This document shows, piece after piece, positions 9,881 to 43,743 of a DNA stretch of 64,000 nucleotides. This DNA is from Oribacterium sp. oral taxon 102. Its GTDB lineage: Bacteria > Bacillota > Clostridia > Lachnospirales > Lachnospiraceae. The stretch is taken from contig NZ_JABXYT010000001.1 of NCBI RefSeq assembly GCF_013394775.1, positions 262,501 through 326,500 of the forward strand, read 5' to 3'. A model generated the notes under the pieces. That model saw only the letters and a list, made by a program, of their open reading frames with translations, made no database searches and had not been told where the DNA came from. Every line of letters begins with the position of its first letter. Within the stretch, counting starts at the first letter, position 1. The translations under genes were made by a program, and so were the position numbers.

Positions 9881-10096
9881 ATGGTATCGAAGGCATTGAT
9901 TGTTTTTATCCGGCTATACCAGAGATTTTTGTCTCCGATGAAGGGCTTCGCACACTGTAAATACACGCCGACCTGTTCTCAATACGCCATTGAGGCAATC
10001 AAAAAGTACGGCTGTGTAAAAGGAACATTGCTGGCAGGATGGAGGCTGCTTCGCTGCAATCCATTCTCCAAAGGCGGATATGATCCTGTTCCCTAA
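9881..10096 (+). CDS. yidD: Membrane protein insertion efficiency factor YidD
   Basis: YidD is a small membrane-associated helper of YidC. The start is ATG 9881 ([19 protein letters not shown], 71 aa), with CGGAGGGG just upstream; an in-frame upstream ATG at 9845 lies in the repeat region and was rejected. Hallmarks are the N-terminal amphipathic helix, the [15 protein letters not shown] cysteine motif and the C-terminal [14 protein letters not shown]. It is followed directly by yidC. Confidence 0.95.
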
Positions 10097-10112
10097 GGAC
10101 GGAGGGCAGAAC

Positions 10113-11429: not shown

Positions 11430-11463
11430 GAATCCTTTTGTGTGAAAGAAGAAGGAGTATGAA

Positions 11464-27064: not shown

Positions 27065-27212
27065 ATGGAAAATAAAAAAGGAACTGGTGTTCAAGGTGCT
27101 TCGCAACGAACCGGCTGAGAGGGTTCCGGTCGGGTTCTGGCATCATTATCTGGAGGATGAGCATGTAAATGCAATCGAGCATGAGGGATTTTATGAGGAA
27201 AATGCTATTTAA
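27065..27212 (+). pseudogene. Remnant of a URO-D/MtaA-like gene (N-terminus only)
   Basis: A strong AAAGGAGG site precedes ATG 27065. One extra G near 27080 shifts the frame. Correcting it gives about 48 residues, MENKK-ELVFKVLRNEPAERVPVGFW... EHEGFYEENAI, then TAA at 27210. The LRNEPAERVPVGFW stretch is typical of the start of uroporphyrinogen-decarboxylase-like proteins (MtaA/CmuA relatives). About 300 residues are missing. The remnant runs into, and overlaps, the start of the next gene, so a deletion probably joined the two. Confidence 0.65.
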
Positions 27213-28515: not shown

Positions 28516-28552
28516 TTTCCTGCTTTTCAATAAGGTATGACCGGAGCAGGGC

Positions 28553-28581
28553 TTGACAGCCCTGATCTAACATGTTAGTAT
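28553..28581 (+). promoter_or_regulatory. Likely promoter of uxuAB
   Basis: TTGACA (28553-28558) and TAGTAT (28576-28581) are 17 nt apart. The transcript would start near 28588. Confidence 0.75.
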
Positions 28582-28625
28582 CTGCTTAAAGATCAAGATG
28601 CGGGGCAGAGAAGTTTGCCTGCAAA

Positions 28626-28639
28626 TGTAAACGCTTACA
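28626..28639 (+). promoter_or_regulatory. cre-like operator upstream of uxuA
   Basis: TGTAAACGCTTACA fits the catabolite-responsive element consensus at every fixed position. It lies about 40 nt downstream of the predicted transcript start, where bound CcpA would act as a roadblock. LacI-family regulators other than CcpA bind similar sequences. Confidence 0.75.
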
Positions 28640-28682
28640 GAGCGTCGGGAAAGGCGGCGGAGCCGCAGGGAAGGAGCAGACA

Positions 28683-29756
28683 ATGAAGATGACATTCCGT
28701 TGGTACGGCGAGGGCAATGATCCGATTTCCCTCCGACAGATCAAGCAGATTCCGGGGATGAGCGGAGTCATGGGACTGCTGGACAAGGCGGCGGGCGTGC
28801 TCTGGACCGAGGAGGAGATCCGGAGCTATGTGGAGCATATCCGTGCAGCGGGACTCGAGTGCGAGGTCATCGAGAGTGTCAATGTCCATGAGGATATCAA
28901 GATGGGGCTGCCCTCGAGAGAGAAGTATATCGAGAACTATAAGCAGACGATCCGGAATCTCGCGAAGTACGGCGTCAAGGTCATCATCTATAACTTCATG
29001 CCTGTTTTCGACTGGCTGCGCACAGATCTCGCCAGAGAGATCCCGGAGGACGGCTCGAACAGCCTCTACTTCGATGAGAAGGAGCTCGGGGAGATGACAC
29101 CGCTCGACCTCGTGCGGAAGACGGCGGAGGACAGTAAGGGCTTTACGCTGCCGGGCTGGGAGCCGGAGCGGCTCGCAGAGCTGGAGAAGACATTGAAGCT
29201 GTACGAGGGGATCACGGAGGATGATCTTCGCAGAAACTACAAGTATTTCCTCGAGCAGGTCATCCCGGTCTGCGAGGAGGCCGGCGTGAAGCTGGCATGC
29301 CATCCGGATGATCCGGCATGGCCGATTTTCGGGCTTCCGCGGATCGCGCACAGTCAGGAGGACTATGACAAGATCTGTGCGCTCTACGATTCTCCGGCGA
29401 ACGGGCTCTGCCTCTGCACCGGCTCTCTCGGTTCCAATCCGGACAATGACATCCCTGCGATCATCCGGCATTTCGGAGAGAGGAACCGCATTAACGCGAT
29501 GCATGTCCGAAATGTCAAGTATCTGGGCTATCATAAGTTCCGTGAGGCAAGCCACCTGTCCTCGGACGGCGACCTCGATATGTTCGAGATTATGAAGGCA
29601 ATCTATGATACCTGTCCGGATACCTATATCCGTCCGGATCACGGCAGGATGATCTGGGACGAGGCCGGCAGACCGGGCTACGGCCTCTATGACCGCGCCC
29701 TCGGCGCCACCTATCTGAACGGGCTCTGGGAAGCGATCTGCAAGCTTTGTAAGTGA
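28683..29756 (+). CDS. uxuA: Mannonate dehydratase
   Basis: UxuA dehydrates D-mannonate to 2-keto-3-deoxygluconate in glucuronate breakdown. The 357-aa TIM-barrel protein begins [20 protein letters not shown], as in Firmicutes homologues, and has the metal-site segments [30 protein letters not shown] and [10 protein letters not shown]. The start is ATG 28683, with AAGGAG upstream. uxuB follows after 19 nt, so the two steps of the pathway are made together. Confidence 0.95.
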
Positions 29757-29775
29757 GAGAAAGAGAGGGGAAAAT

Positions 29776-31386
29776 ATGAAGCTCACAGTAGAAGGACTCA
29801 GGGACAGGGCAGCATGGGAGGCTGCCGGCGTGCAGCTTCCCTCCTATGACATAGGGAAGGTGGCGGAGGCGACGCGGAAGGCGCCGGTCTGGGTGCATTT
29901 CGGCATCGGCAACATTTTCCGTATCTTCATCGGCGGGATCGCGGATACCCTCCTCGCAGAGGGGGAAATGGAGAAGGGCATCACCTGTGTCGAGAGCTTT
30001 GACTTCGATGTGGTGGACAGGATTTATGCGCCCTACGACAATCTCGTGCTGGGCGTGACGCTGCGGACGGACGGCGGCATGGATAAGAGGGTGATCGGCT
30101 CGCTGACAGAGGCGATCAAGGCGCAGTCTGCGGTTCCGGAGAGCTGGAACCGACTGAAGGAGATCTTCGTGAATCCGGTGCTCCAGATGGTATCCTTCAC
30201 GATTACAGAGAAGGGCTATGCGCTGCGGGCAGCGGACGGAAGCTTCTTCCCGTTCATAGAGGCGGATATCGAAAACGGTCCCGAGAAGGCAGGCAGCGCC
30301 ATGGCGATTCTGGCTGCTCTGCTCTTCACCCGCTTCAATGCGGGCAGGCTCCCGGTGGCGGTAGTTTCCATGGACAACTGCTCTCACAATGGGGAGAAGC
30401 TGAAAAATGCAGTCGTAACAATGGCGGAGGAGTGGGAGAAGAGGGGCTTCGTTCCAGAGGCCTTCCTCGAGTACCTTCGGGATGAGAAGCAGGTAGGCTT
30501 CCCCTGGTCTATGATCGACAAGATTACGCCGAGACCGGCAGAGTCCGTACAGCAGGAGCTGGAGAAGCTCGGTATCGAGAATATGGCGCCGGTGATCACC
30601 TCGAAGCATACCTATATCGCCCCCTTTGTCAATGCGGAGGGACCGCAGTATCTGGTGATCGAGGATCAGTTCCCGAACGGACGTCCGGCGCTTGAGAGGG
30701 CTGGCGTTTACATGACGGATCGGGATACCGTCAATAAGGTGGAGAGAATGAAGGTGACGACCTGTCTGAATCCGCTCCATACCGCGCTTGCCGTATACGG
30801 CTGTGTGCTGGGCTATGAGCTGATTGCGGATGAAATGAAGGATCCCGAGCTCCGCGAGCTGGTACAGCGGATCGGACCTGTGGAGGGAATGCCGGTCGTG
30901 ACCGACCCGGGCATCCTTTCGCCAAAGGATTTCGTAGCCGAAGTTATCGATGTCCGTATTCCGAACCCGTTTATGCCGGATACGCCGCAGCGGATCGCGA
31001 CCGACACCTCTCAGAAGGTCGGCATCCGCTACGGGGAGACGATTAAGTCCTATGTCGAGAAGTACGGAAGCGCAGAGAGGCTCGAGGCGATTCCGCTGGC
31101 GATCGCCGGCTGGCTCCGTTATCTGTTGGGCGTGGACGATCAGGGACAGCGCTTCGAGCGCTCCGCGGATCCGATGCTCACAGAGCTCAGCGCCCGGCTT
31201 TTCGGTATCGAGCTGGGGAAGCCGGAGACGGCAGCCGGTAGGCTTCATCCGATCCTCTCTAACCGGAATATCTTCGGAATCGATCTCTATGAGGCAGGAC
31301 TCGGGGAGAAGATTGAGGAAATGTTCCGTATGGAGCTCGCCGGGGCAGGCGCAGTCCGTGCGACGCTCCGGAAGTATCTGGGGTAA
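29776..31386 (+). CDS. uxuB: Fructuronate reductase (mannitol dehydrogenase family)
   Basis: This NAD(P)-linked enzyme interconverts D-fructuronate and D-mannonate, the step before UxuA. The 536-aa length matches long-chain mannitol dehydrogenase family members. The N-terminal nucleotide-binding region contains WVHFGIGNIFRIFIGG, and the catalytic region has MKVTTCLNPLHTALAVYGCVL, where the family uses Lys/Asn/His. Other polyol dehydrogenases of this family are alternatives, but pairing with uxuA makes UxuB most likely. Confidence 0.9.
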   Translation: MKLTVEGLRDRAAWEAAGVQLPSYDIGKVAEATRKAPVWVHFGIGNIFRIFIGGIADTLLAEGEMEKGITCVESFDFDVVDRIYAPYDNLVLGVTLRTDGGMDKRVIGSLTEAIKAQSAVPESWNRLKEIFVNPVLQMVSFTITEKGYALRAADGSFFPFIEADIENGPEKAGSAMAILAALLFTRFNAGRLPVAVVSMDNCSHNGEKLKNAVVTMAEEWEKRGFVPEAFLEYLRDEKQVGFPWSMIDKITPRPAESVQQELEKLGIENMAPVITSKHTYIAPFVNAEGPQYLVIEDQFPNGRPALERAGVYMTDRDTVNKVERMKVTTCLNPLHTALAVYGCVLGYELIADEMKDPELRELVQRIGPVEGMPVVTDPGILSPKDFVAEVIDVRIPNPFMPDTPQRIATDTSQKVGIRYGETIKSYVEKYGSAERLEAIPLAIAGWLRYLLGVDDQGQRFERSADPMLTELSARLFGIELGKPETAAGRLHPILSNRNIFGIDLYEAGLGEKIEEMFRMELAGAGAVRATLRKYLG

Positions 31387-31664: not shown

Positions 31665-32441
31665 ATGAAAACGAATTATTTTAACAGATTGAGAGAGGAA
31701 GCGGAGACAGAGGAGGGCATCTCGGATGCGGCGGGACGGGAAGGTGCCTCAGATGCAGTCAGACCAAGCAGTGAGAGCGTGTACAGTGATATTCTGGAAA
31801 AGATCATCAAGCTGCAATATGCGCCGGGAGAGATGATCAGTGAAAACCAGATGGCGAAGGAGTACGGCGTCTCCCGGACGGTGATCCGCTCTGCCTTTGC
31901 CAGACTGGAGGAGGCGGGCTTCGTGGAGGTATATGCCAAGAAGGGCACCTATGTGTCGCGGATGAATCTGCATTATATTGCGGATCTCCTGATGCTGAGA
32001 ACCGCAGTGGAAAAGGAGATCATCAGCGAGCTTTATCAGAAGCTGGATCAGAAGAAACGGCAGGAGCTGATTGAACGGCTGGAGGAGAATCTGGAAAAGC
32101 AGGAAAAATTCCGAAATTCCAGCGGCTACCTGAAGGCGTACCAGGCGCTGGATCAGGAGTTTCATTATCTCATGATTCAGAGCGTCGGACGGGAAAGCCT
32201 GATGCAGCTGTTGGATCAGAATATGCTCCACATCGCGAGATGGCGAAATTTCGACGTGGTCTTCGACCAGCGTGTGCCGGAGCTGATCGACGAGCATCGG
32301 CGGATTTTGGAGGATCTGAAGCGCGATACCTCGGAGTATGCGGAGCACTCCATAGCGGCGCATCTGGAAACCATCACAAAGATTGCGAAGCGGGCAATTC
32401 ACAGCTATCCGCTTTATTTTACGGATACCGAGTTTTCCTAG
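31665..32441 (+). CDS. GntR/FCD-family transcriptional regulator
   Basis: The start is placed at ATG 31665 (MKTNYFNRLREE, 258 aa), with AGGGAG upstream; the frame is open to 31581. A poorly conserved N-terminal 35 residues precede the winged helix (QMAKEYGVSRTVIRSAFARLEEAGFVEVY) and a helical FCD domain. It has terminators on both sides and sits between uxuAB and the fld/car-like operon, so it could control either. A hexuronate regulator is the simpler guess. A TATAAT at 31563-31568 may be its -10 box. Confidence 0.88.
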   Translation: MKTNYFNRLREEAETEEGISDAAGREGASDAVRPSSESVYSDILEKIIKLQYAPGEMISENQMAKEYGVSRTVIRSAFARLEEAGFVEVYAKKGTYVSRMNLHYIADLLMLRTAVEKEIISELYQKLDQKKRQELIERLEENLEKQEKFRNSSGYLKAYQALDQEFHYLMIQSVGRESLMQLLDQNMLHIARWRNFDVVFDQRVPELIDEHRRILEDLKRDTSEYAEHSIAAHLETITKIAKRAIHSYPLYFTDTEFS

Positions 32442-32691: not shown

Positions 32692-32720
32692 TTTACAGCA
32701 CAATGACATATTGATAAAAT
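32692..32720 (+). promoter_or_regulatory. Likely promoter of the fld/car-like operon
   Basis: TTTACA (32692-32697) and TAAAAT (32715-32720) are 17 nt apart in an AT-rich stretch. The transcript would start near 32727. Confidence 0.65.
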
Positions 32721-32744
32721 AATAACATCTTAAACGGGGCATCA

Positions 32745-32768
32745 ATCCAGACGTGGTCTGGATCATTT
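32745..32768 (+). terminator. Possible leader attenuator of the fld/car-like operon
   Basis: ATCCAGAC-GTG-GTCTGGAT (32745-32763) is a perfect 8-bp stem followed by CATTTTT. It lies inside the predicted leader, about 20 nt after the transcript start and 70 nt before the first gene, so it may be a regulated terminator. No T-box or known riboswitch pattern was recognised. Confidence 0.6.
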
Positions 32769-32838
32769 TTAAATGAAGCATGTATATAAGATAAGCCCTC
32801 TATATTTGAGACAACTTGTATACAAGATGGAGAAGAAG

Positions 32839-33621
32839 ATGCTGACATTGGGAATCGATATTGGCTCGACCACCTCGAAGGCGGTGATTTTGAAGGACGG
32901 AAAGGATATCCTTGCCACCTCTCTGGTTGTCGCCACGGTGGGGACAAACGGGGTTTCCCGGGCGATCGAGAATGTTTTTCTTACGTCCGGACTGCGTGAG
33001 AGCGAGATTGCCTGCACGGTAGCGACCGGTTACGGCAGGCAGACCTATGAAAAGGCGGACTATCAGATCAGTGAGCTTTCCTGTCATGCGCTGGGAGTGA
33101 ACCACATTTTCCCGGAGGTACGGACGGTGATAGACATCGGCGGACAGGATGCCAAGGTGATTTCACTGAATGAGATGGGCAGGATGGAGAACTTCGTGAT
33201 GAACGATAAGTGTGCCGCCGGTACCGGCCGCTTTCTGGATGTTATGGCGACGATTCTGAATCTGGATATATCCCGGCTGGAGCTTGAGGCGGCAAAGGCG
33301 GAGCGGATCGTCAATATATCCAGTACCTGTACGGTATTCGCCGAGTCCGAGGTGATTTCGCAGCTTGCCAACGGGGTGGCGATTCCGGATCTCGTGGCAG
33401 GGATCTGCCAGTCTGTGGCGGTACGGGTGGCATCGCTCGCGAAGCGGGTCGGCATTCGGGAGAAGGTCTGCATGAGCGGCGGCGTGGCGAGAAACGGCGG
33501 CGTGAGAAACGCCATGCAAGAGGAGCTGGGTGTCGAGATCTGCTATGACGAGAGAGCGCAGCTGATGGGGGCGCTCGGTGCGGCCATTTATGCGGCGAAC
33601 AAGGCGGGAAAGAGCGGATAG
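32839..33621 (+). CDS. 2-Hydroxyacyl-CoA dehydratase activator (FldI/HadI/HgdC family)
   Basis: The activator uses ATP hydrolysis to fire one low-potential electron from its [4Fe-4S] cluster into the dehydratase. The start is placed at ATG 32839 (MLTLGIDIGSTTSK, 260 aa, same length as HgdC), with GGAG 6 nt upstream; 32773 and 32827 are longer options without a ribosome site. The ASKHA ATPase motifs are GIDIGSTTSK, VIDIGGQDAK and SGGVARNGG. The two cysteines that bridge the cluster between subunits are about C125 (NDKCAAGTG) and C164 (SSTCTVFAES). It is the first gene of the operon. Confidence 0.93.
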   Translation: MLTLGIDIGSTTSKAVILKDGKDILATSLVVATVGTNGVSRAIENVFLTSGLRESEIACTVATGYGRQTYEKADYQISELSCHALGVNHIFPEVRTVIDIGGQDAKVISLNEMGRMENFVMNDKCAAGTGRFLDVMATILNLDISRLELEAAKAERIVNISSTCTVFAESEVISQLANGVAIPDLVAGICQSVAVRVASLAKRVGIREKVCMSGGVARNGGVRNAMQEELGVEICYDERAQLMGALGAAIYAANKAGKSG

Positions 33622-33721
33622 AGTGCACCCGCTGAGGGAAGGTGTTTGGCGGCGAGACTGTCAGGAGGCAGGGAGCCGCTGAAAATACAGCGATAAAGGA
33701 ACTCACAAGGAGGTAATGACT

Positions 33722-34963
33722 ATGGCAGAAGAGTTCAGGGGAAACAAGCCGGCACCGGATCCGAATTCGGCGAAGATGAGACTCAGGAAGATCGCGGCGG
33801 ATGCATACACAGACGCGATTGAGGCGAAGAAGCGGGGAGAGCCGGTGGGCTGGGTAGCCAGTAACTTTCCGGTAGAGATCCCGGAGACACTGGGGCTCAA
33901 TGTCTGTTATCCGGAGAACCAGGCGGCAGGCATCGCGGCGAGAGGTGCCGGGGAGAGAATGTGTTCGGAGGCAGAGGGAGACGGCTACAGCAATGACATC
34001 TGCGCCTATGCCAGAATTTCCCTTGCATACATGAAGCTGAAGTCCTGCCCGGAGCAGGATATGCCGCAGCCGGATTTCGTACTCTGCTGCAATAATATCT
34101 GCAACTGCATGATCAAGTGGTATGAGAACATTGCACATGAGCTGAATATCCCGATGATTATGATCGACATTCCCTTCAATCCGGACTATGAGGTATCGGA
34201 GGCGCAGATCGACTACATAGAAGCGCAGATGTGGGATGCTATCCATCAGCTGGAAAAGATCACCGGCAAGAAGTGGAGCGACGAGAAGTTTAAAAAGGTA
34301 ATGGAGATCTCCGGACGCTCCAGCCGTGCGTGGCTGAATGCGACGGCCTGCGCCAAGTATGTTCCGTCTCCGTTCAACGGCTTCGACCTTCTGAACCACA
34401 TGGCGGTTATGGTGACGGCACGGGGCAAGGAGGAAGCGGCGGAGGCAATGGAGACGCTGTACCGCGAGTATGAGGAAAATCACCAGACGGGGAATTCCAC
34501 CTTCCGCGGAGAAGAGAAGCACAGGATCATGTTTGAGGGAATCGCCTGCTGGCCATGGCTCCGTGTGACCTCCTCCGGACTGAAGGATCGGGGAATCAAT
34601 ATGGTGACGACCATCTATGCGGATGCCTTCGGCTTCATATATAAGGACTTCCGGGATATGTGCCGTGCCTACGCGGAGGTGCCGAACTGCATGAATCTGG
34701 AGCACGCCAGAGACAAGCGGATCAAGCTCTGTCAGGACAATCATGTAGAGGGACTTCTGGTGCATACGAACCGTTCCTGCAAGCTCTGGTCCGGATTCAT
34801 GCCGGAGATGTCCAGACAGGTAGGTGAGCGCTGCGGCATCCCGGTAACGTCCTTTGACGGCGATCAGGCGGATCCGAGAAACTTCTCGGAAGCGCAGTAT
34901 GATACGCGGGTACAGGGACTGACGGAAATCATGGAGGAAAAGAAGGAGGAGGCACGGGCATGA
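33722..34963 (+). CDS. 2-Hydroxyacyl-CoA dehydratase subunit, FldB-like
   Basis: One half of the dehydratase that removes water from an (R)-2-hydroxyacyl-CoA by a ketyl-radical route, giving an enoyl-CoA. ATG 33722 (413 aa) is preferred, since AGGAGG is 8 nt upstream; ATG 33716 is too close to it. From memory it is closest to phenyllactyl-CoA dehydratase FldB: VGWVASNFPVEIPETLG, FVLCCNNICNCMIKWYE, NRSCKLWSGF and FDGDQADPRNFSEAQYDTR. Likely cluster cysteines are those in MCSEAEG, LCCNNIC and NRSCK. Substrate specificity cannot be read from the sequence. Confidence 0.9.
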   Translation: MAEEFRGNKPAPDPNSAKMRLRKIAADAYTDAIEAKKRGEPVGWVASNFPVEIPETLGLNVCYPENQAAGIAARGAGERMCSEAEGDGYSNDICAYARISLAYMKLKSCPEQDMPQPDFVLCCNNICNCMIKWYENIAHELNIPMIMIDIPFNPDYEVSEAQIDYIEAQMWDAIHQLEKITGKKWSDEKFKKVMEISGRSSRAWLNATACAKYVPSPFNGFDLLNHMAVMVTARGKEEAAEAMETLYREYEENHQTGNSTFRGEEKHRIMFEGIACWPWLRVTSSGLKDRGINMVTTIYADAFGFIYKDFRDMCRAYAEVPNCMNLEHARDKRIKLCQDNHVEGLLVHTNRSCKLWSGFMPEMSRQVGERCGIPVTSFDGDQADPRNFSEAQYDTRVQGLTEIMEEKKEEARA

Positions 34964-36069
34964 CGGCAAGAGAAATTCTGAATGAGCTGCATAGGGCGGC
35001 GTTTTCTCCGAAGGAGCAGCTGCATAAATATCTCGCGGAGGGAAAAAAGGTTGTAGCGGTGACGTACTATACACCGCAGGAAATCATTCATTCCATGGGC
35101 TTCGTCCCGATGGGAGTCTGGGGCGGGGATTTGCAGGTCAATGAAGCCAAGAAATATTTCCCGGCATTTATCTGCTCTGTGATGCAGACCGTACTGGAGC
35201 TGGGAATCAAGGGGGAATATGAGGGCGTTTCTGCTGTTGTGATCCCGTCGCTCTGCGACTCGCTGAAGACGCTGGGGCAGAATTGGAAGTATGCGGTTCC
35301 GGGCATTCCCTTTATTCCTATGAGCTATCCGCAGAACAGGAAGCCGGAGTATGGAAGGAAATTCACCAAGGCAGGTTATGAGAGAGTGATTGCGGATCTG
35401 GAGGCGGCGACCGGTGCCAGATTCTCCGAGCTTTCTCTTAGGGAGTCGATTCGCATCTACAATGAGCATAACCGTGTTATGAGAGCCTTTGCGGAGACTG
35501 CGGCGGAGGCGGAGCTTTCCGCACAGGAGAGAAGCGATGTGTTCAAGAGCGCATGGTTTATGGAGCCGGAGGAGCATACGGCGCTGGTGCGGCAGCTGAA
35601 TGAGGAGCTGGGCAAGGGCGCGAAGGACACGAAGAGGGTTCGGGTTCTGACTACAGGAATTCTGGCAGATGCGCCGGAGCTCCTGAAGATTTTCGACCGG
35701 AATCAGATCAAGATCGTGTTTGATGATGTGGCGGATGAGTCCAGACAGTACAGAGTAGATACCTCCGAGGAGGGGAATCCTGTGGACGCCATAGCGCAGA
35801 AATTCGCAGATATGGATTATGACACACTGCTCTATGATCCGGAAAAGAAGCGCGTAGACTATATCGTGGAGCAGGCGAAGCGGCATGGCGCGGAGGGCGT
35901 GGTCGTGCTGATGACGAAGTTCTGCGATCCGGAGGAATTCGACTATGTACCGCTGAAGAGAGCCTGTGATGCGGCGGGACTGCATCATGTCAATATAGAG
36001 GTGGACAGGCAGATGGTGAATTTCGAGCAGGCAGCCACCATGCTGGAGGCATTTCAGGAAATGTTTTAA
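34960..36069 (+). CDS. 2-Hydroxyacyl-CoA dehydratase subunit, FldC-like
   Basis: The partner subunit of the preceding protein, 369 aa, overlapping it by 4 nt so that the two are made in equal amounts. Family features include VTYYTPQEIIHSMGFVP near the N-terminus, VVIPSLCDSLKTLGQNW in the middle, and KFCDPEEFDYVPLKRAC near the C-terminus, supplying the cysteines for a second [4Fe-4S] cluster. Alternatives within the family are the C subunits of leucine (HadC) or lactate (LcdB) systems. Confidence 0.9.
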   Translation: MTAREILNELHRAAFSPKEQLHKYLAEGKKVVAVTYYTPQEIIHSMGFVPMGVWGGDLQVNEAKKYFPAFICSVMQTVLELGIKGEYEGVSAVVIPSLCDSLKTLGQNWKYAVPGIPFIPMSYPQNRKPEYGRKFTKAGYERVIADLEAATGARFSELSLRESIRIYNEHNRVMRAFAETAAEAELSAQERSDVFKSAWFMEPEEHTALVRQLNEELGKGAKDTKRVRVLTTGILADAPELLKIFDRNQIKIVFDDVADESRQYRVDTSEEGNPVDAIAQKFADMDYDTLLYDPEKKRVDYIVEQAKRHGAEGVVVLMTKFCDPEEFDYVPLKRACDAAGLHHVNIEVDRQMVNFEQAATMLEAFQEMF

Positions 36070-36094
36070 ATCACATATAAAGAAGGGGGTTACT

Positions 36095-37264
36095 ATGGAT
36101 AACAAAAAGAAAGGCTTGCCCGTATTTGTCGGGGTAGCGTGCGTATGGATGGGGACGCATTTCGGCCCCGGTGTCGCCAGCGGAACACAGGTGAATTCCT
36201 TTTACACGCAGTATGGACTGTTCGGCGTAGGGTGTTCGATTCTGGCGATGTGCCTTCTGGGCTATGCGCTGTACTGCTCCATGGAGTTTTCCAGACTCTA
36301 CAAGACCTACGACTACAAGGCATGGGGCTCTACGCTGACAGGCATTCAGTGGATCGGCGTGCTCTATGACATTTCCTTCATTGTCACGATCTTCACCGCA
36401 CTCGGCGGCTCGCTGAACGCAGTGGGAAGTCTGTTCTCCAAGCTGCTGGGACTCAACTACTGGGTAGGCGTGCTTGCAGTCGTGATCTGCACCATGCTGC
36501 TCTGCGCCTTCGGCTCGGAGCTGGTGAGACGCTCCTCCTCCTACATGATGTTCGTGGTACTGGGGATTCTGGCGCTGATCGTCATCATTGTTCTGCTGTT
36601 CGGCGAGGCGGACTTCAGCGGCTCAGTCGCAAACGCCGCTGCGAATCTGCCGAATTCCGGAAGCCTTCTGACGGCGGTATGGAACGCGGTCCTCTACGCT
36701 TCCTTCCAGGCTACGGTAGTGGGAAATATCTCCTCTGTGGCGGACGGTCTGACGAAGAGATCCGAGTCCAAAAAGGCAGCCATTACCGGCATCGCCGGCA
36801 ATGCGATCATGCTGGTGGTACTGTCGCTTTTGCTGTTCTCCTACACCAATGTTTCCGGCTTTGAGAGCGGTTCCATCATCAAGGAGGCGCTGCCGATCTA
36901 TGCGATTCTGGACAGAATGCATTTCCAGTGGCTGACCGTTTTGTATGTGGCTACCGTGTTTGTGGCGGTATTGAGTACGGCAGTCGGCTTCAGCTTCGGC
37001 GGACTGTCCCGCTTCAGCAAGATTTACAACAAGACCGGGACGAAGAGCACCATGAAGAATATGATTTTCATCGGCGCACTGCTCTTGATGTGCTGCTTCG
37101 CATCAATCTTCGGCATCCTGAAGCTGGTGTCAACCGGCTACAGAATTCTGGGCTATATCAATCTGCCGATCTTCATTCTGACCGCGATTATCATCGGAAG
37201 AAGAAAGATCAGCAAGGGTTACCTGAAGGAGCATCATGTCGAGGCTCCGGGGGTTGACGAGTAA
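36095..37264 (+). CDS. YkvI-like membrane transporter
   Basis: This 389-aa integral membrane protein has about ten hydrophobic helices and begins MDNKKKGLPVFVGVACVWMG. The GTHFGPGVASGTQ sequence in the first helix region resembles the broken-helix Gly motif of APC/LeuT-fold carriers. I place it in the YkvI group of APC-like proteins, whose substrates are unknown. It sits between the dehydratase and CoA-transferase genes, 25 nt after the former, so import of the pathway's substrate or release of its product is a reasonable inference. Confidence 0.75.
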   Translation: MDNKKKGLPVFVGVACVWMGTHFGPGVASGTQVNSFYTQYGLFGVGCSILAMCLLGYALYCSMEFSRLYKTYDYKAWGSTLTGIQWIGVLYDISFIVTIFTALGGSLNAVGSLFSKLLGLNYWVGVLAVVICTMLLCAFGSELVRRSSSYMMFVVLGILALIVIIVLLFGEADFSGSVANAAANLPNSGSLLTAVWNAVLYASFQATVVGNISSVADGLTKRSESKKAAITGIAGNAIMLVVLSLLLFSYTNVSGFESGSIIKEALPIYAILDRMHFQWLTVLYVATVFVAVLSTAVGFSFGGLSRFSKIYNKTGTKSTMKNMIFIGALLLMCCFASIFGILKLVSTGYRILGYINLPIFILTAIIIGRRKISKGYLKEHHVEAPGVDE

Positions 37265-37299
37265 GCGTGCCCGCAGATTATCACACATATACATTCCAC

Positions 37300-37329
37300 G
37301 CGCCGCTTCGCTCTCGAACGAAGCGGCGC
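37300..37329 (+). promoter_or_regulatory. Perfect intra-operon hairpin before the CoA-transferase gene
   Basis: GCGCCGCTTCG (37300-37310) pairs without mismatch with CGAAGCGGCGC (37319-37329), loop of 8 nt. No T run follows, so it is more likely an mRNA-stabilising or processing element than a terminator. It ends 23 nt before the next start codon. Confidence 0.6.
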
Positions 37330-37352
37330 CAGCAGGAAAGGAGACAGGAAAA

Positions 37353-38585
37353 ATGAGTAAACCGTTGGAGGGAGTTAAGGTCATCGAGCTGGCCAATTTC
37401 ATTGCCGCTGCATCTGCAGGACGTTTCATGGCAGATCTGGGCGCGGATGTAATCAAGATTGAGGCGCCGAAGGGCGATCCGCTCCGCTATACCGCCCCTT
37501 CTGAGGGAAGACCTCTGGACTGGCTGGAGAATACCACCTGGGAGCTGGAAAATGCCAATAAGAGATGTGCTTCTCTGAATATGAAGACACCGGAGGGAAT
37601 GGAGGCATTCCATAAGCTTCTGGCCTCTGCGGACGTGCTGATCACCAACTGGAGAGTGCAGGCGCTGCAGAAGCTCAACCTGGACTATGAAAGCCTGAAG
37701 GAAAGGTATCCTAAGCTGGTTTACGCGATCTGTACAGGCTACGGCGAGAAGGGACCGGACAGGGATCTTCCGGGCTTCGATTTCACTGCCTTCTTTGCCC
37801 GCGGCGGATATCTCCATTCTCTTCATCAGGCTTCTGACAGACCGCAGAATGTCGTTCCCGGACTGGGAGATCATAATGTGGGAATGAATCTGGCAGCCGG
37901 TATCCTGGCAGCACTGTATCATGCGAAGCTGACGGGAGAGGGAGAAAAGGTAGAAACCTCGCTCTTTGAGACCGCCATTTACAACATGGGAATGATGGTG
38001 CAGGCCTCCAATTATGACGGTGCGGCAAGGAACTATCCCATCGATGCCAGAAATGCGCCCACACCGACCAACAACTGCTTCAAAACCAAGGACGGAAGGT
38101 ACATCCAGCTCTGTACGCCGGATTACAATATGTACTATGAGAGGGTAATGCGTGCCATCGGCAGAGAGGACCTGATCGGGAATGAGGTCTACTTCCCCAT
38201 CCTGACCTGCCAGCAGAATGGAAAAACGCAGGAGGTCTACGATATCGTCATGGCGGAGTTTGCCAAGTATGATGCCGCGGAGATGGAACGGAGACTGACA
38301 GAGAACGACATTGCCTTTGGACTCGCGCAGAGCTGGAATGAGATTCTGCAGGATAAGCAGGCGGAGGCCAACGACTGCTTCTATGACATGACCTTCCGCA
38401 GCGGAAACACCAGAAGACTGGTCAGACTTCCGGTAAAGTTCGAAAACATGGGGACACCGGAATATCACCGCGGACCGGATGTGGGAGAGCATGGAAGAGA
38501 AGTTCTGAAGGAGATCGGGTATACGGACGAGCAGGTAGATGCAATGCTCGCCAGCCAGGCATTGTATATTCGGGAACAGAAGTAA
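37353..38585 (+). CDS. FldA-like CoA-transferase (class III, CaiB/BaiF family)
   Basis: This enzyme swaps CoA between the product acyl- or enoyl-CoA and the incoming 2-hydroxy acid. The start is ATG 37353 (MSKPLEGVKVIELANF, 410 aa), with AAAGGAG about 8 nt upstream; an open frame runs back to 37236 across the hairpin. The catalytic aspartate is about D173 in VPGLGDHNVG. Stretches such as GDPLRYTAPSEGRPL, LENANK and GYGEKGPDRDLPGFDFTAFF recall cinnamoyl-CoA:phenyllactate CoA-transferase FldA more than leucine-type HadA. A MITE-like repeat starts 5 nt after its stop. Confidence 0.9.
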   Translation: MSKPLEGVKVIELANFIAAASAGRFMADLGADVIKIEAPKGDPLRYTAPSEGRPLDWLENTTWELENANKRCASLNMKTPEGMEAFHKLLASADVLITNWRVQALQKLNLDYESLKERYPKLVYAICTGYGEKGPDRDLPGFDFTAFFARGGYLHSLHQASDRPQNVVPGLGDHNVGMNLAAGILAALYHAKLTGEGEKVETSLFETAIYNMGMMVQASNYDGAARNYPIDARNAPTPTNNCFKTKDGRYIQLCTPDYNMYYERVMRAIGREDLIGNEVYFPILTCQQNGKTQEVYDIVMAEFAKYDAAEMERRLTENDIAFGLAQSWNEILQDKQAEANDCFYDMTFRSGNTRRLVRLPVKFENMGTPEYHRGPDVGEHGREVLKEIGYTDEQVDAMLASQALYIREQK

Positions 38586-38590
38586 TGTAT

Positions 38591-38738
38591 AGGGAAACGC
38601 TGATGACACCGACGAAACCTGTTGTTTCGCGCAGCGAAATCGTGCGATGTCTTCCGGACAGAGCTCGGCCTGCCGGATCACGCAGGCGTTGGGATGCGTG
38701 ATTGGCAGGAAGAATAGGAATGCGTCAGCGTTTCCCCT
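38591..38738. mobile_element. MITE-like repeat inside the operon
   Basis: GGGAAACGCTGA (38592-38603) and TCAGCGTTTCCC (38725-38736) are perfect 12-bp inverted ends of a roughly 148-bp non-coding element. Inside are a hairpin TTTCGC-GCA-GCGAAA and a 14-bp stem (CCTGCC plus ATCACGCA with TGCGTGAT plus GGCAGG, 38669-38709). The 47-nt core 38618-38664 matches 19254-19299. It separates the CoA-transferase gene from the ligase gene and contains no visible promoter or terminator. Confidence 0.65.
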
Positions 38739-38804
38739 TGAGAAAGGTCATGGCTTCCATGACTTTTCTTCGCACTCATCTTGTATACATGAAAGGGAAG
38801 GCAC

Positions 38805-40409
38805 ATGGATTCTTTAACAGGAGGGACAATCGGAGAGTGCCTTAGGGAACGGGCAGATAAAATGCCGGAGCATTCCGCCATGCGCGCGGGGGAATGGAGC
38901 TGCAGCTACCGGCGCTTCGAGGAAATCACGGAGCTGCTGGCCATCGATCTTATGCAGAGAGGCTTGGAGAAGGGGGACAGAATCGGCATACTCGGCGTGA
39001 ACAGTCCGAACTGGGTTTTTACCTTTCTCGCGGCGGTCAAGATCGGGGTGGTTCCTTTCCTGCTGAATACCTGCTCCTGCGAGAGAGAGCTGGAGGAAAT
39101 CCTGAATCGTTCCTCTCTGAATACCCTGTTCTATGGGAAGGGGCATCACGATCTTGTATACAAGGACATTCTGTCCTCCCTCTGCAAAAGGGGGAAGCGC
39201 TCGGAGCGGATGCTTCCGATCGACCGAGAGGGAGAGGCTTCCCTTTCGGAGGCGGACTTTCCTGCGTCGTATTCCGGGGAGGCACTGCGGCGCGGACTTC
39301 TTTCCAGAGAAGAGGCGGTTCGTCCGGAGGATACTGCCTGCGTGCTGTTCACCTCGGGAAGCACTGCTGCCCCCAAGGGCGTCATGCTGTGCCATCAGAG
39401 TCTGCTTCGAAATGCGGAGGCAATGCGGGATGCCATGGGCTGGGGAGAGGCGGACAGGATGTGCCTTGCGGTTCCGCTGTTTCATACCTTCGGCATCACT
39501 GCCGGTATTCTGGCATGTATTCTGTCAGGGGCAAGCATGGAGATTCTGCCCTACTACCGGACGGAGGCGGTGTGGAACGCTGTCGAGGAGAAGCACTGTA
39601 CTATCCTGAACGGGGTGCCCAGTATGTTTCTGGCTATGGTCAGAAAGGAGGGCTACAGAGGACGGGACGGCAGCTCTGTTCGTTCGGGAATTATAGCGGG
39701 TTCCGCCTTTTCTGCGGAGGAGTATCAGGAAATCAAAGGGAAGTTCAGCAGGATGGATCTGCGGCCCAGCTATGGCATGACGGAAACCTCCCCCTGTGTC
39801 ACCATCGTCAGGCCGGGATCGGAAAAGGAGATTCTGGAGGGGAGCTGCGGCCTCCCGATCCCCGGGGTTCGCGTCCGGATCATCCGGAGCGGCAGGGAGT
39901 GTGCCTGCGGCGAGAGCGGGGAGGTGCAGGTGAAGGGCTACAACCTGATGCAGGGCTATTTCGACAGCCCGGAGGAAACCGCGAGAGCGTTTACGGAGGA
40001 CGGGTGGCTGCATACCGGGGATCTGGGCTATCTGGATCAGAGAGCTGCGCTGCATATTTCCGGTCGGATGAAGGACATCATTATCCGTTCCGGGGAGAAT
40101 ATCTCTCCTGCGGAAATTGAGGAGGAGCTGGATCAGTTTCCGGGCGTACAGAGGGTAAAGGTCGTGGGTGTCAAGGCCTCCGTCCGTCAGGAGGAGGTGG
40201 TTGCCTGCATGAAGATGCAGGAGGGAATAACGCTGGATCCGGATGCGGTGCAGGCGTTCCTCGCGCCAAGGCTCTCGGCCTACAAGATGCCGACATATAT
40301 CATCCAGCTGGATTGCTTCCCGGAGACGGCCAGCGGGAAGCCGGATATCAAGGCGATCCGGGAAATGGCGGAGGAGGCGATCCGCACAGCCAGAGCGTGT
40401 TATATGTAA
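38805..40409 (+). CDS. Acyl-CoA ligase (AMP-forming), CarB/FldL-like
   Basis: This 534-aa adenylate-forming enzyme activates a carboxylic acid to its CoA thioester with ATP. The core motifs are intact: VLFTSGSTAAPKGV (P-loop), YGMTETSP, HTGDLGYL, GRMKDIIIRSGENIS (hinge) and the terminal lysine in ETASGKPD. Its place directly before an acyl-CoA dehydrogenase and etfBA matches carB (caffeyl-CoA synthetase) in Acetobacterium woodii. In an fld setting it could prime the CoA-transferase cycle or accept free aryl acrylates. The substrate is unknown. Confidence 0.87.
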   Translation: MDSLTGGTIGECLRERADKMPEHSAMRAGEWSCSYRRFEEITELLAIDLMQRGLEKGDRIGILGVNSPNWVFTFLAAVKIGVVPFLLNTCSCERELEEILNRSSLNTLFYGKGHHDLVYKDILSSLCKRGKRSERMLPIDREGEASLSEADFPASYSGEALRRGLLSREEAVRPEDTACVLFTSGSTAAPKGVMLCHQSLLRNAEAMRDAMGWGEADRMCLAVPLFHTFGITAGILACILSGASMEILPYYRTEAVWNAVEEKHCTILNGVPSMFLAMVRKEGYRGRDGSSVRSGIIAGSAFSAEEYQEIKGKFSRMDLRPSYGMTETSPCVTIVRPGSEKEILEGSCGLPIPGVRVRIIRSGRECACGESGEVQVKGYNLMQGYFDSPEETARAFTEDGWLHTGDLGYLDQRAALHISGRMKDIIIRSGENISPAEIEEELDQFPGVQRVKVVGVKASVRQEEVVACMKMQEGITLDPDAVQAFLAPRLSAYKMPTYIIQLDCFPETASGKPDIKAIREMAEEAIRTARACYM

Positions 40410-40511
40410 ACGATTTAGCAATACGGCGATACGATACGAAAAAGGATAAGTTTGGTGAATATTCCGGCGGGGTTTCCGCAGGAAAAGCGTTTGACAGGAG
40501 GTAAAAGGAAA

Positions 40512-41657
40512 ATGGCAGAGGCTTTTTTCACGGAGCAGCATGAGCTGATCAGAAAACTGACCCGAGACTTCGCGGAACGGGAGTTTACGGATGAACTTCT
40601 GGATCAGGTAGAGGCGTCAGGTGAATTTCCCGAGGAGGTTCTACAGAAGATGGCAAAGGCCGGTTTCTTCGGCGTGAAAACGCCGAAGGAGTGGGGCGGG
40701 CAGGGAGCGGATGCCCGGGCATACGTGCTGGTGATGGAGGAAATCTCCAGAGTGTCCGCCGTGGCAAGCATCTATGTGTCCAGCCCGAATTCTCTTTCCG
40801 GAGGGCCGCTGCTTCTGGCGGGGAACGATGCGCAGAAGGAAAAATATCTGAGGCCGGTGGTGACCGGCGAGAAGAAGCTGGCATTTGCTCTGACAGAGCC
40901 GGGAGCCGGCTCCGATGCGGGAGGCGTGCAGACGACGGCAAGAAAAGAGGGTGAGCATTACATTCTGAATGGACGGAAGTGCTTCATTACCATGGCTCCG
41001 CTGTCGGATTATGCGGTGATCTTCGCCAGAACGGGAGAGGCTGGTCCCAGAGGGCTTTCCGCCTTCGTGCTGGATATGCATGCGCCGGGTGTCTCCTGCG
41101 GCAAGGGCGAAAATAAAATGGGAATCATCGGCTGTGCGACCTCCGATATTATCATGGAAAATGCGGTGGTGCCGGAGTGCGACCGTCTGGGCGAGGAAGG
41201 GGACGGCATGAAGATTGCCATGAATACGCTGAATACCGGTCGTTTGGGTGTTGCGGCGCAGTCGATCGGCGTGGCGCAGGCCTGTCTGGACGAGGCGGTA
41301 AGCTATGCCAAGGACAGAAAGCAGTTCGGAAGGCCTATCGGACAGTTTCAGGCAATTCAGTTCATGCTTGCGGAGATGGCGACCAAGCTGGAGGCGGCGA
41401 AGCAGCTGGTGTATAAGGCAGCATACATGATGGATACCAGACAGAATGCGACGATGAACGCTTCTATGGCGAAGTACTATGCCTCGGAGGTCTGCAATGA
41501 AATCGCGCAGAAGGCGCTGCAGATCCATGGAGGCTACGGCTACATCAAGGACTACAAGATCGAACGGTATTTCCGTGACTGCCGGATCTTTACGATTTAT
41601 GAGGGAACCAGCCAGGTGCAGCAGATGGTAATCGGCAGGACATTGCTTAAAAAATAA
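40512..41657 (+). CDS. Acyl-CoA dehydrogenase / enoyl-CoA reductase (AcdA/CarC-like)
   Basis: A flavoprotein of the acyl-CoA dehydrogenase family, here predicted to run as an enoyl-CoA reductase fed by EtfAB. The start is ATG 40512 (MAEAFFTEQHELIRKL, 381 aa), downstream of AGGAGG; a longer frame from 40452 lacks support. Motifs are FALTEPGAGSDAGG, the FAD-site DRKQFGRPIGQFQAIQF and the catalytic glutamate at about E364 in IYEGTSQVQ. It is 25 nt ahead of etfB. Confidence 0.92.
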   Translation: MAEAFFTEQHELIRKLTRDFAEREFTDELLDQVEASGEFPEEVLQKMAKAGFFGVKTPKEWGGQGADARAYVLVMEEISRVSAVASIYVSSPNSLSGGPLLLAGNDAQKEKYLRPVVTGEKKLAFALTEPGAGSDAGGVQTTARKEGEHYILNGRKCFITMAPLSDYAVIFARTGEAGPRGLSAFVLDMHAPGVSCGKGENKMGIIGCATSDIIMENAVVPECDRLGEEGDGMKIAMNTLNTGRLGVAAQSIGVAQACLDEAVSYAKDRKQFGRPIGQFQAIQFMLAEMATKLEAAKQLVYKAAYMMDTRQNATMNASMAKYYASEVCNEIAQKALQIHGGYGYIKDYKIERYFRDCRIFTIYEGTSQVQQMVIGRTLLKK

Positions 41658-41682
41658 CCCAAGGTCAGGAGGTCATAGAAAG

Positions 41683-42468
41683 ATGAAGATTCTGGTTTGT
41701 GTGAAACAGGTTCCGGATACCAATGAAGTGAAGATCGATCCGGTAAAGGGAACGCTGATCCGGGAGGGGGTTCCCAGTATTCTGAATCCGGATGACGCCA
41801 ATGCTCTGGAGGCGGCGCTGCAGATGAAGGACAGGGACCCGGAGATCGTAGTGGACGTGATTACCATGGGGCCGCCGCAGGCGGGATATATGCTGCGGGA
41901 ATGCCTGGCAATGGGGGCGGATCATGCCTATCTGCTTTCCGACCGTGCCTTCGGCGGCGCAGATACCTGTGCGACCTCGACGACGATCGCGGCAGGCATC
42001 AAAAAGGTGGGCGATGTGGATTTGATCTTCGCGGGTCGGCAGGCCATAGACGGAGATACGGCACAGGTAGGTCCGCAGGTGGCGCAGAGACTGGGGCTTC
42101 CCGAGGTGTCCTATGTACAGCATTATGAGGTGAAGGGAAATGCAGTAGAGGTACAGCGGCAGCTGGAGGACGGCTATGAGGTTCTGGAGGTACAGATGCC
42201 CTGTCTGCTCACCTGCGTGAAGGAGCTGAATACTCCGAGATATATGTCGGTCGGCTCCATTGTGGATGCATACCAAAAGGAGATCACGGTATGGAATCAT
42301 GAGGATGTGGAACTGGATCCCAGGGACTGCGGTCTGAATGCTTCGCCGACGCAGGTCTTCCGCTCCTTTACGCCTCCGCAGAAGGGGAAGGGAGAAATGC
42401 TCTCCGGAACGGTGGAGGAAATGGCAGGGAAGCTGGTGGAAAAGCTGGCGGAAAAGCATCTGGTCTGA
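41683..42468 (+). CDS. etfB: Electron transfer flavoprotein beta subunit
   Basis: EtfB (261 aa) binds FAD, or NADH in bifurcating ETFs, and pairs with EtfA. It begins MKILVCVKQVPDTNEVKI and has the SDRAFGGADTCATSTTIAAG loop and FAGRQAIDGDTAQVGPQVA segment seen in anaerobe ETFs associated with bifurcating enzymes. AGGAGG lies about 8 nt before ATG 41683. Its association with an enoyl-CoA reductase suggests NADH-driven ferredoxin reduction, as known for CarCDE and butyryl-CoA dehydrogenase complexes. Confidence 0.93.
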   Translation: MKILVCVKQVPDTNEVKIDPVKGTLIREGVPSILNPDDANALEAALQMKDRDPEIVVDVITMGPPQAGYMLRECLAMGADHAYLLSDRAFGGADTCATSTTIAAGIKKVGDVDLIFAGRQAIDGDTAQVGPQVAQRLGLPEVSYVQHYEVKGNAVEVQRQLEDGYEVLEVQMPCLLTCVKELNTPRYMSVGSIVDAYQKEITVWNHEDVELDPRDCGLNASPTQVFRSFTPPQKGKGEMLSGTVEEMAGKLVEKLAEKHLV

Positions 42469-42489
42469 TGGAACAGGAGGGAAAATCAC

Positions 42490-43686
42490 ATGGCAGTTAT
42501 TGTAAATAAAGAAAAATGCAGAGGATGTACAAAATGTGTGAAGGTCTGCCCCTTCGACGCCATCACCATGGTAGACAGAAAGGCGGAGATCGGGATGTCC
42601 TGCACCAGCTGCAAGCAGTGTATCGCAGCCTGCCCCTTTGATGCCATATTCCAGACCGAGGAGGAAAAGAGCGAGATCGATCTGAGCGCATACCATGGGG
42701 TCTGGGTATTCGCGGAGCAGAGAGACGGAAAGCTGATGAGCGTGGCGCTGGAGCTGCTGGGAGAGGGGAGAAAGCTGGCAGATCAGGTGGGCTGCGAGCT
42801 CTGTGCTGTGCTCTGCGGCGAGCAGGTGGAGGCGCTGATTCCGGAGCTCTATGCATATGGCGCGGAAAAGGTCTACTACGCGGATAGTCCGGAGCTCAGA
42901 ACCTATCGGACGGACGCCTATACGAAGGTGATATACGAGGCCATTCAGCGTTATCGTCCGGAGATCGTACTGCTGGGCGCGACGCATATCGGCAGGGATC
43001 TGGGGCCGTGTCTGGCAGTCCGCTGCGGGACAGGACTGACTGCGGATTGCACCAGGCTGGAGATCGATCCGGAAACCAAGGGCATCCTCCAGACGAGACC
43101 GGCCTTCGGCGGCAATCTGATGGCGACGATTCAGTGCCCGAAGCATCGTCCGCAGATGTCTACGGTACGTCCCGGCGTGATGGAAAAGCCGGTAAGGGAT
43201 GCGGGAAGAACCGGAGAGACGATCCGGCTTTCTGCAGAGTTCAAAGAAGGAGAGATCCGCACCAGGATTCTGGAGATCGTCAAGAGCGCGAAGGAAACGG
43301 TATCCTTGAGCGATGCCAAGGTGATCGTTTCCGGCGGTATGGGACTGGGTGGAAAGGAGGGCTTTGACCTGCTTCGGAAACTGGCAGACCGCATGGGAGG
43401 AACTGTCGGGGCATCGAGAGCTGCGGTGGATGCCGGATGGATCGACCACGCCTATCAGGTGGGGCAGACGGGGACGACAGTCCGTCCGGACATCTATTTC
43501 GCCTGCGGAATCAGCGGAGCGATCCAGCACGCGGCAGGAATGAAGGATTCGAAGCTGATCGTCGCGATCAACCAAAATGAGAGCGCACCGATCTTTGACA
43601 TCGCCGACATTGGCATCGTAGGGGATCTCTACAAGGTCATTCCGGCGATTCTGTCCGAGCTGGAGCAGTATGAGGAAAAGAAATAG
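42490..43686 (+). CDS. etfA: Electron transfer flavoprotein alpha subunit with N-terminal 2[4Fe-4S] domain (CarE-like)
   Basis: The first 60 residues form a ferredoxin module with [15 protein letters not shown] and [15 protein letters not shown], followed by a standard EtfA. The C-terminal FAD domain includes [25 protein letters not shown] and [13 protein letters not shown]. At 398 aa it is about 60 residues longer than plain EtfA. The same fusion is known in CarE of the caffeate-reducing, ferredoxin-producing CarCDE complex, which supports electron bifurcation here. It is the last gene before a hairpin. Confidence 0.94.
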
Positions 43687-43707
43687 GCAGCTGCAAGCAG
43701 CAGACAG

Positions 43708-43743
43708 AAATGCCGTCGGCGGGGAGGCTCGCCGGCGGCATTT
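43708..43743 (+). terminator. Hairpin ending the fld/car-like operon
   Basis: AAATGCCG-T-CGGCG faces CGCCG-G-CGGCATTT, a 13-bp stem interrupted by one T-G pair. Only a short T tract follows, so termination may be incomplete. Confidence 0.7.

Follow-up and report, generated by a model that had tools for sequence, protein, structure and literature searches.

The aromatic reductive Stickland fermentation of Peptostreptococcus and Clostridium sporogenes is encoded by fldAIBC with acdA-etfBA, a ligase, and FldH. Related gene sets are carABCDE of Acetobacterium woodii, for the electron-bifurcating caffeyl-coenzyme A (CoA) reductase; hadAIBC-acdB-etfBA of Clostridioides difficile, for conversion of leucine to isocaproate; and lcdAB with acryloyl-CoA reductase, for the acrylate pathway of Anaerotignum propionicum. 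The CoA-transferase Pct belongs to family I. An excerpt of PMC9205015 describes Pct as the CoA-transferase of the acrylate pathway and the reductase of that pathway as non-bifurcating. We present here a nine-gene operon from a 64,000-nucleotide stretch of the Oribacterium sp. oral taxon 102 genome (contig NZ_JABXYT010000001.1, positions 262,501 to 326,500; "the window" below means this whole stretch). With a rough probability of 0.55, the operon would serve to reduce external free (R)-2-hydroxy acids, most likely aryl-lactates, to the corresponding propionates as an electron sink, with conservation of energy. New here are a GntR regulator gene upstream and a palindrome, CTTGTATACAAG, that recurs before related operons.

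The window operon resembles the Fld systems in its activase, dehydratase alpha subunit, FldA-like CoA-transferase, ligase, reductase, Etf, and GntR regulator, and the palindrome stands before most Fld loci that have gntR. It differs from them in that no FldH, aminotransferase, or branched-chain amino acid (BCAA)-type transporter gene adjoins, EtfA carries a ferredoxin domain, the gene order is another, and the beta subunit has strongly diverged. With car it shares the order ligase, reductase, EtfB, EtfA and the ferredoxin domain, whereas the A. woodii car locus has no dehydratase or activase; the window CoA-transferase was rejected as a CarA because it belongs to PF02515 (family III) and A. 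woodii CarA to PF01144 (family I). The Had system likewise has a family III CoA-transferase, activase, alpha and beta subunits, reductase, EtfB, and EtfA, but its alpha is 48% and its CoA-transferase 42% identical to those of the window, its Etf lacks the ferredoxin domain, and five Had-type loci gave no ligase match. The acrylate pathway also combines a 2-hydroxyacyl-CoA dehydratase with an enoyl-CoA reductase and Etf, with 41% identity to the window in alpha and 42% in the reductase.

Results

All nine genes lie on the + strand (32,839 to 43,686), and the open reading frame list and family profile searches confirmed the order and families given in a preliminary description made from the letters alone (Table 1). 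The alpha and beta genes overlap by 4 bases, and the remaining gaps within the operon measure 21 to 219 bases; the activase reading frame opens at 32,773, with 32,839 as the likely start. Alpha matches HadB, beta HadC, and the activase HadI at the conserved cysteines, which in the activase include Cys125 and Cys164. A YEGT motif, with the catalytic Glu, is also present. An HGD-D profile search of the window genome (2.53 Mb, 2 contigs) returned three matches, and the two over the cut-off are the only HGD-D pair found. Chance or artefact as the origin of the gene set is ruled out, since the same order recurs in named genomes; carriers include Clostridium jeddahtimonense, C. uliginosum, Lacrimispora celerecrescens, Proteiniclasticum ruminis, Acetobacterium bakii, and a genome taken as C. 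fermenticellae (G180). The distribution of alpha is patchy, with a match at E <1e-200 in 3 of 17 examined genomes of the genus, the window genome counted among them, and at E ≤1e-60 in 25 of 391 genomes of the class. No description of this operon type was found in the openly licensed PubMed Central literature, which does not show that none is in print.

The reductase, EtfB, and EtfA find their best Protein Data Bank matches in CarC (6fah_C; 573 bits, next 377), CarD (6fah_B; 423 bits, next 295), and CarE (6fah_A; 598 bits over residues 1 to 393, next 364), and the NCBIfam model for acryloyl-CoA reductase scored below its cut-off (415 of 640 bits). The affinity of the last four genes to carBCDE, proposed earlier from their order, thus extends to the sequences of CarC, CarD, and CarE. 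EtfA has all eight ferredoxin cysteines (10, 13, 16, 20, 38, 41, 44, and 48), and its Arg203 aligns with Arg203 of CarE. The window genome encodes rnfC (514 bits, over the cut-off), the only Rnf subunit searched for. This evidence supports a bifurcating-type reductase and Etf of the CarCDE family, and the route from 2-hydroxyacyl-CoA to saturated acyl-CoA suggested at the outset very probably holds as a general scheme. Arg203 of CarE is described in part of PMC5861303 as crucial for bifurcation; the same source places caffeyl-CoA at about -30 mV and the Car reaction as exergonic by about 36 kJ/mol. By analogy, the window enzyme would perform an exergonic Car-like reaction.

Of 460 relatives in named genomes, the 80 best were compared for gene neighborhood (46 window-clade, 20 Fld-clade, 11 proteobacterial-type, and 3 other loci). 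In 24 of the 80, all of them window-clade, the alignment of EtfA starts at residue 1 and so takes in the ferredoxin domain, and these 24 pair a window-type dehydratase with a Car-type reductase and ferredoxin-EtfA. All neighbor counts below are for genes no more than 9 kb from alpha. On this basis, the 46 window-clade loci have activase in 43, beta in 44, CoA-transferase in 36, ligase in 27, reductase in 31 (26 at ≥60% identity), EtfB in 28, EtfA in 24 (21 with the ferredoxin domain), gntR in 20, a LarA-like gene in 7, and an FldH-like gene in 1. Because contig ends truncate some of the loci, these presence counts are minimum values. Ferredoxin-EtfA occurs in none of the 20 Fld loci.

The alpha subunit, which carries the active-site cluster according to an excerpt of PMC11574389, was placed in a tree of 54 alphas, a chosen subset of the loci with four further proteins, including a named FldB (P0241, phenyllactyl-CoA dehydratase subunit FldB of Clostridium botulinum). 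It falls in a 48-row clade (support 100/99) composed of the named FldB, the Fld alphas of Peptostreptococcus, Peptoniphilus, and Gallibacter, a proteobacterial group, and the window clade; the Had and Lcd alphas lie outside. The window clade (28 rows, 100/100) is sister to an 11-row Fld clade (94/88), and the named FldB stands outside both, beside Peptoclostridium (84/78). A larger tree of 96 rows agrees, with a weaker sister fork (85/64); it lacks the named FldB, takes only alphas of 380 to 480 residues, and leaves out 14 thinned loci and 12 others (11 refetched under another id and one further Lcd-type). Identity of the window alpha is 59% to the named FldB, 60 to 64% to the Fld clade, 48% to HadB, and 41% to LcdA, and the Fld and window clades have the same residue in 184 of the 201 columns that both conserve. 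The Lcd reference (L218) is one that we take to be Anaerotignum propionicum. The Had reference (L066) has two differences from 3o3m_A over 406 aligned residues, and its genes are arranged as an excerpt of PMC6384274 describes for C. difficile. NCBIfam models scored below their cut-offs for HadB (505 of 750 bits) and HadC (388 of 700), and on these scores and the alpha tree membership in HadBC or the acrylate pathway was rejected. The Fld affinity that the preliminary description had read from the gene set is thus supported for alpha, apart from HadB and LcdA, and phylogeny gave no firm grouping with enzymes of unrelated substrates.

Proteus and Leminorella have Fld-like dehydratase loci with ligase, CoA-transferase, and a distant Etf (L104, L108 to L111, L113, L114, L116, and L118), and a protein cluster labelled Escherichia albertii also falls in the 48-row clade. 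The cluster of Clostridium jeddahtimonense (L095) holds two tandem copies of the alpha gene at about 9950 to 12450. Besides its Fld cluster, Peptostreptococcus canis has a second, Had-type cluster (L067) with no activase match adjoining.

The CoA-transferase is 64 to 66% identical to the Peptostreptococcus genes in the place of fldA (C. sporogenes FldA not compared) and 42% to HadA; the Peptostreptococcus genes are themselves 42 to 43% identical to HadA.

The GntR/FCD regulator gene ends 397 bases upstream of the activase, and homologues lie near related operons; the protein probably belongs to the operon unit and regulates it. Among 16 aligned GntR regulators (five from Fld loci), read by eye, most have a similar recognition-helix region and an RWRN-type motif in common. 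Two exact copies of CTTGTATACAAG are found in the 2.53-Mb genome, both within the operon. Allowing one mismatch gives 7 sites genome-wide (5 for the reversed control), with one of the five inexact sites also in the operon, and allowing two gives 5 sites in the window against 0.81 expected.

The relatives were scanned for the palindrome over ≤400 bases upstream of the operon with ≤2 mismatches. The motif was derived from the window, which was not counted, and 73 of the 80 loci were used; for L083, L125, L130, L135, L140, L149, and L150 the upstream sequence was too short or a suitable alpha match was lacking. Where gntR is present, sites were found at 20 of 22 loci of the window clade and 10 of 16 Fld loci; of the Fld loci lacking gntR, 1 of 3 had a site, and the 10 proteobacterial Fld-like loci and the 2 other loci had none. 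Random stretches from the same loci, mostly coding and with sites slightly under-counted, predict 0.47 and 0.49 loci for the window clade with and without gntR, 0.81 and 0.04 for Fld with and without, 0.03 for proteobacterial, and 0.01 for other loci. In a stricter control, 59 permutations of the palindrome, equal to it in composition, were scanned over the same upstream regions and gave means of 0.88, 0.41, 0.22, 0.03, and 0.20 for the first five groups in this order, with maxima of 5, 3, 3, 1, and 3 loci. From the co-occurrence of gntR and palindrome we infer that GntR binds CTTGTATACAAG. The predicted promoter (Table 1) comes from a scan that was overall near chance (10 sites found, 8.0 expected). 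Between it and the first operator, before the activase, stands a terminator-like hairpin (32745 to 32763, +), possibly a leader or attenuator.

The transporter gene product had no Pfam or NCBIfam match. Its AlphaFold model (predicted local distance difference test [pLDDT], 85) matched LeuT/APC-fold transporters in Foldseek with a best E value of 1e-5 and a template modeling (TM) score of up to 0.69 among those listed.

Divergent LarA-like proteins are encoded beside the dehydratase loci L051, L056, L057, L058, L091, L093, L098, L101, L103, L121, L124, and L145. They have two conserved histidines, with Thr-Asp after the second in the ten aligned, and PF09861 was matched by the three tested (34 to 41 bits); they are possibly a racemase group. 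For one model (pLDDT 77), the 18 structural matches at E ≤0.001 are all LarA entries (TM 0.39 to 0.52), and a Protein Data Bank search with a LarA-like sequence gave no match. These neighbors were not accepted as proof of phenyllactate as the substrate; the fold is LarA-like, but Thr-Asp follows the second His.

In the 67-reductase tree, built from a locus list similar to that of the 96-row alpha tree and restricted to reductases of 350 to 420 residues, CarC lies in a clade of 33 rows (99/96), and the 32 rows besides it are in dehydratase loci. The window reductase shares one larger clade with Fld AcdA, and Had AcdB falls outside. A tree with Acetobacterium added, which also omitted proteobacterial rows and reductases <45% identical to the window, has a CarC clade of 41 rows (96/95). 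Six of these are Acetobacterium-genus copies from loci without a dehydratase match; they group on a single branch, which the tree does not place exactly within the clade. Nearly all reductase rows come from loci found through the dehydratase (exceptions are CarC, Bcd, the Acr locus, and the added Acetobacterium loci), and CarC relatives without a dehydratase are therefore under-sampled.

The A. woodii car locus, which we take to be L237 (G149), keeps the window order of ligase, reductase, EtfB, and EtfA and shows no dehydratase match in the 16 kb fetched. Five of 12 Acetobacterium-genus loci have the dehydratase set, six have no dehydratase, and one (L248) is cut. The five (L238 to L241 and L244, the last taken as A. 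bakii) carry CoA-transferase, activase, alpha, beta, ligase, reductase, EtfB, and ferredoxin-EtfA, with L239 cut in the CoA-transferase. The operon had been described as a hybrid of an fld-type and a car-type module. That reading is probably the wrong way round: the same pairing occurs in 24 of the 80 loci and in 5 of the 12 Acetobacterium-genus loci, and CarC nests among reductases of dehydratase loci, in a sampling that favored such loci. Compared with the window, the same-genus genome G003 (L049) shows 87% identity in alpha and 56% in the reductase, which lies on a long branch in the CarC clade; its EtfB, a fragment of 62 residues where the contig ends, has 51% identity to that of the window and 77% to the Acr EtfB of L222. 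This mix of identities shows signs of module change within the genus.

Beyond the operon, a metallo-beta-lactamase-fold hydrolase gene (PF00753; 43753 to 44811, +) begins 66 bases after etfA; among the 80 loci a relative (36%) was seen only near the A. bakii cluster. Upstream of the regulator (27169 to 31386, +), the open reading frame list, read by eye, holds a YhaM/CyuA-like protein and uxuA/uxuB-like genes. A Clostridiales-1 RNA (RF01699; 24381 to 24560, -; 80 bits) is the sole Rfam match over the gathering score in the window.

Table 1. Features of the operon and its upstream region (positions in the window)
Feature	Coordinates	Strand	Basis
GntR/FCD-family regulator	31665..32441	+	PF00392 61 bits, PF07729 53 bits
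Predicted sigma-70-like promoter, TTTACA-17-TAAAAT, TG before second hexamer	32692..32720	+	Consensus scan, 10/12 positions
Probable operator CTTGTATACAAG, exact	32815..32826	+	12 bases before activase start
Activase (FldI/HadI-type ATPase), 260 aa from this start	32839..33621	+	TIGR00241 (258 bits), PF01869
2-Hydroxyacyl-CoA dehydratase alpha (active-site subunit)	33716..34963	+	PF06050 (HGD-D)
2-Hydroxyacyl-CoA dehydratase beta	34960..36069	+	PF06050 (HGD-D)
LeuT/APC-fold secondary transporter	36095..37264	+	AlphaFold and Foldseek
Family III CoA-transferase, FldA-like	37353..38585	+	PF02515
Second probable operator, one mismatch to CTTGTATACAAG	38780..38791	+	In 219-base gap before ligase
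AMP-forming acyl-CoA ligase	38805..40409	+	PF00501/PF13193; position relative to reductase as carB in A. woodii
Third palindrome copy CTTGTATACAAG, exact, inside ligase gene	39153..39164	+	Motif scan
Enoyl-CoA reductase, acyl-CoA dehydrogenase fold, CarC-type	40512..41657	+	6fah_C match; one clade with CarC
EtfB, CarD-type	41683..42468	+	6fah_B match
EtfA with N-terminal 2[4Fe-4S] ferredoxin domain, CarE-type	42490..43686	+	6fah_A match, 8 Cys, Arg203

Discussion

In the cycle that we favor, the LeuT-fold protein would import the 2-hydroxy acid (candidates are phenyl-, 4-hydroxyphenyl-, and indole-lactate), and the ligase would prime the cycle with one acyl-CoA. The CoA-transferase would then shift CoA from the product arylpropionyl-CoA onto a new aryl-lactate, and the activase with alpha and beta would carry out the dehydration through a ketyl radical. 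The CarC-type reductase and Etf would reduce the cinnamoyl-type CoA with NADH and, by way of the fused ferredoxin domain, bifurcate electrons to ferredoxin; Rnf would re-oxidize the ferredoxin and conserve energy, and GntR may repress or activate through CTTGTATACAAG in response to a pathway compound. An aryl-lactate substrate is suggested by the clade in which alpha falls, by a CoA-transferase that is FldA-like and a reductase of CarC type, and by the regulator and palindrome in common with Fld operons. External supply is suggested by the lack of transaminase and FldH genes beside the operon, the lack of an FldH relative in the genome, and the LarA-like genes beside some relatives. Cultures of Bifidobacterium make aryl-lactates, and those of P. 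anaerobius make aryl-propionates, as reported in part of PMC10294742.

A number of observations weigh against this reading. The window alpha clade is sister to Peptostreptococcus Fld and not nested in Fld, so that its substrate may differ, and the named FldB sits on a long branch, its exact place flagged as unsure by the tree program. The beta subunit is 40 to 42% identical to Peptostreptococcus Fld, Had, and Lcd betas alike, and the ligase is 38 to 40% identical to the Fld and C. fermenticellae ligases. FldA and HadA are over 48% identical in an excerpt of PMC5758686, versus the 42 to 43% found here, and the Peptostreptococcus genes may therefore not stand in for C. sporogenes FldA. The CoA-transferase of A. 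bakii, in the same alpha clade, is 49% identical to HadA and 44% to the window, and those of Pseudoflavonifractor An85 and Oribacterium C9 are 46% and 49% identical to the window. Reductases are exchangeable, those of Oribacterium sp. C9 (L122) and Pseudoflavonifractor An85 (L129) being distant at alpha identities of 78 and 81%. The palindrome also occurs at 4 of 20 window-clade loci without gntR and is missing from 6 of the 16 Fld loci with it (five Peptoniphilus or Aedoeadaptatus and one Bacillota metagenome-assembled genome), and since several loci are near-duplicates the operator counts are not independent. The transporter substrate could not be read from the structure, a LeuT-like fold giving none. 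The LarA-like Thr-Asp at the selectivity sites, read by eye, misfits the patterns in the excerpt of PMC11770544, and the PF09861 match in the window genome is partial and under the cut-off (21.6 of 23.3 bits).

Whether the substrate is aryl or aliphatic can be judged here only by inference from such affinities. The same cycle acting on an aliphatic or other non-aryl 2-hydroxy acid (such as 2-hydroxyisocaproate, 2-hydroxybutyrate, lactate, or a polar one) seems rather unlikely: the alpha clade is distinct from Fld, Thr-Asp in the LarA-like neighbors suggests a polar side chain, the best substrate-specific NCBIfam models (HadB, HadC, and acryloyl-CoA reductase) all score under their cut-offs, and some clade members have a Had-like CoA-transferase, but the Had and Lcd alphas fall outside the clade, and Fld operons have a CoA-transferase, regulator, and palindrome similar to those in the window.

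It is improbable that the operon serves the usual reductive Stickland pathway for aromatic amino acids, the genes for transaminase and 2-hydroxy acid dehydrogenase lying at other places in the genome. Fld operons with a similar core do carry transaminase and dehydrogenase genes. The earlier label of a reductive Stickland set goes too far, as the front end of Fld operons, aminotransferase, FldH, and amino acid transporter, does not adjoin the window operon. Aminotransferase is found in 0 of 46 window-clade loci versus 19 of 20 Fld loci, FldH in 1 of 46 (FldH-like) versus 20 of 20, and the BCAA-type transporter in 0 of 46 versus 20 of 20, and the whole fetched stretches of window-clade loci hold two FldH-like genes (L117, 31%; L136, 37%). 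An FldH query against the window genome, with other lactate dehydrogenase families not searched, reached E 0.04 at best, and the one PF00389 match there has no resemblance to FldH or LdhA; the window genome was not searched for aminotransferases away from the operon, which leaves this explanation some room. A mainly caffeate- or cinnamate-type respiration as in A. woodii, with the dehydratase serving only hydroxylated side substrates, would fit the carBCDE order and the top matches to CarC, CarD, and CarE but is very improbable, as activase adjoins alpha in 43 and beta in 44 of the 46 relatives, and the A. woodii locus shows no dehydratase in the 16 kb fetched and has a CoA-transferase of another family than that of the window.

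Beyond the reading of the single operon as one for external aryl-lactates, we tentatively propose a dedicated aryl-lactate respiration. The GntR/CTTGTATACAAG regulon may be common to Fld Stickland operons and to a large group of Clostridia that lack the front end and would live on the aryl-lactates of other bacteria, conserving energy with a Car-type bifurcating reductase, and the A. woodii caffeate operon may be an offshoot in which the dehydratase was lost and the CoA-transferase changed. Because sampling favored dehydratase loci, the derivation of car from dehydratase operons is offered as a hypothesis only.

Aryl-propionates act on the host, and a table of indolepropionate producers in an excerpt of PMC9824871 names only Clostridium and Peptostreptococcus species. 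If the operon reduces aryl-lactates, Lachnospiraceae and other Clostridia would be candidate aryl-propionate producers that need no aromatic amino acid catabolism of their own, because Bifidobacterium supplies aryl-lactates (PMC10294742, in part). The operon type offers a testable origin for caffeate respiration, together with an operator that marks the regulon. Were aryl-lactate respiration to prove a dedicated metabolism, Lachnospiraceae would be uncounted makers of phenyl- and indolepropionate.

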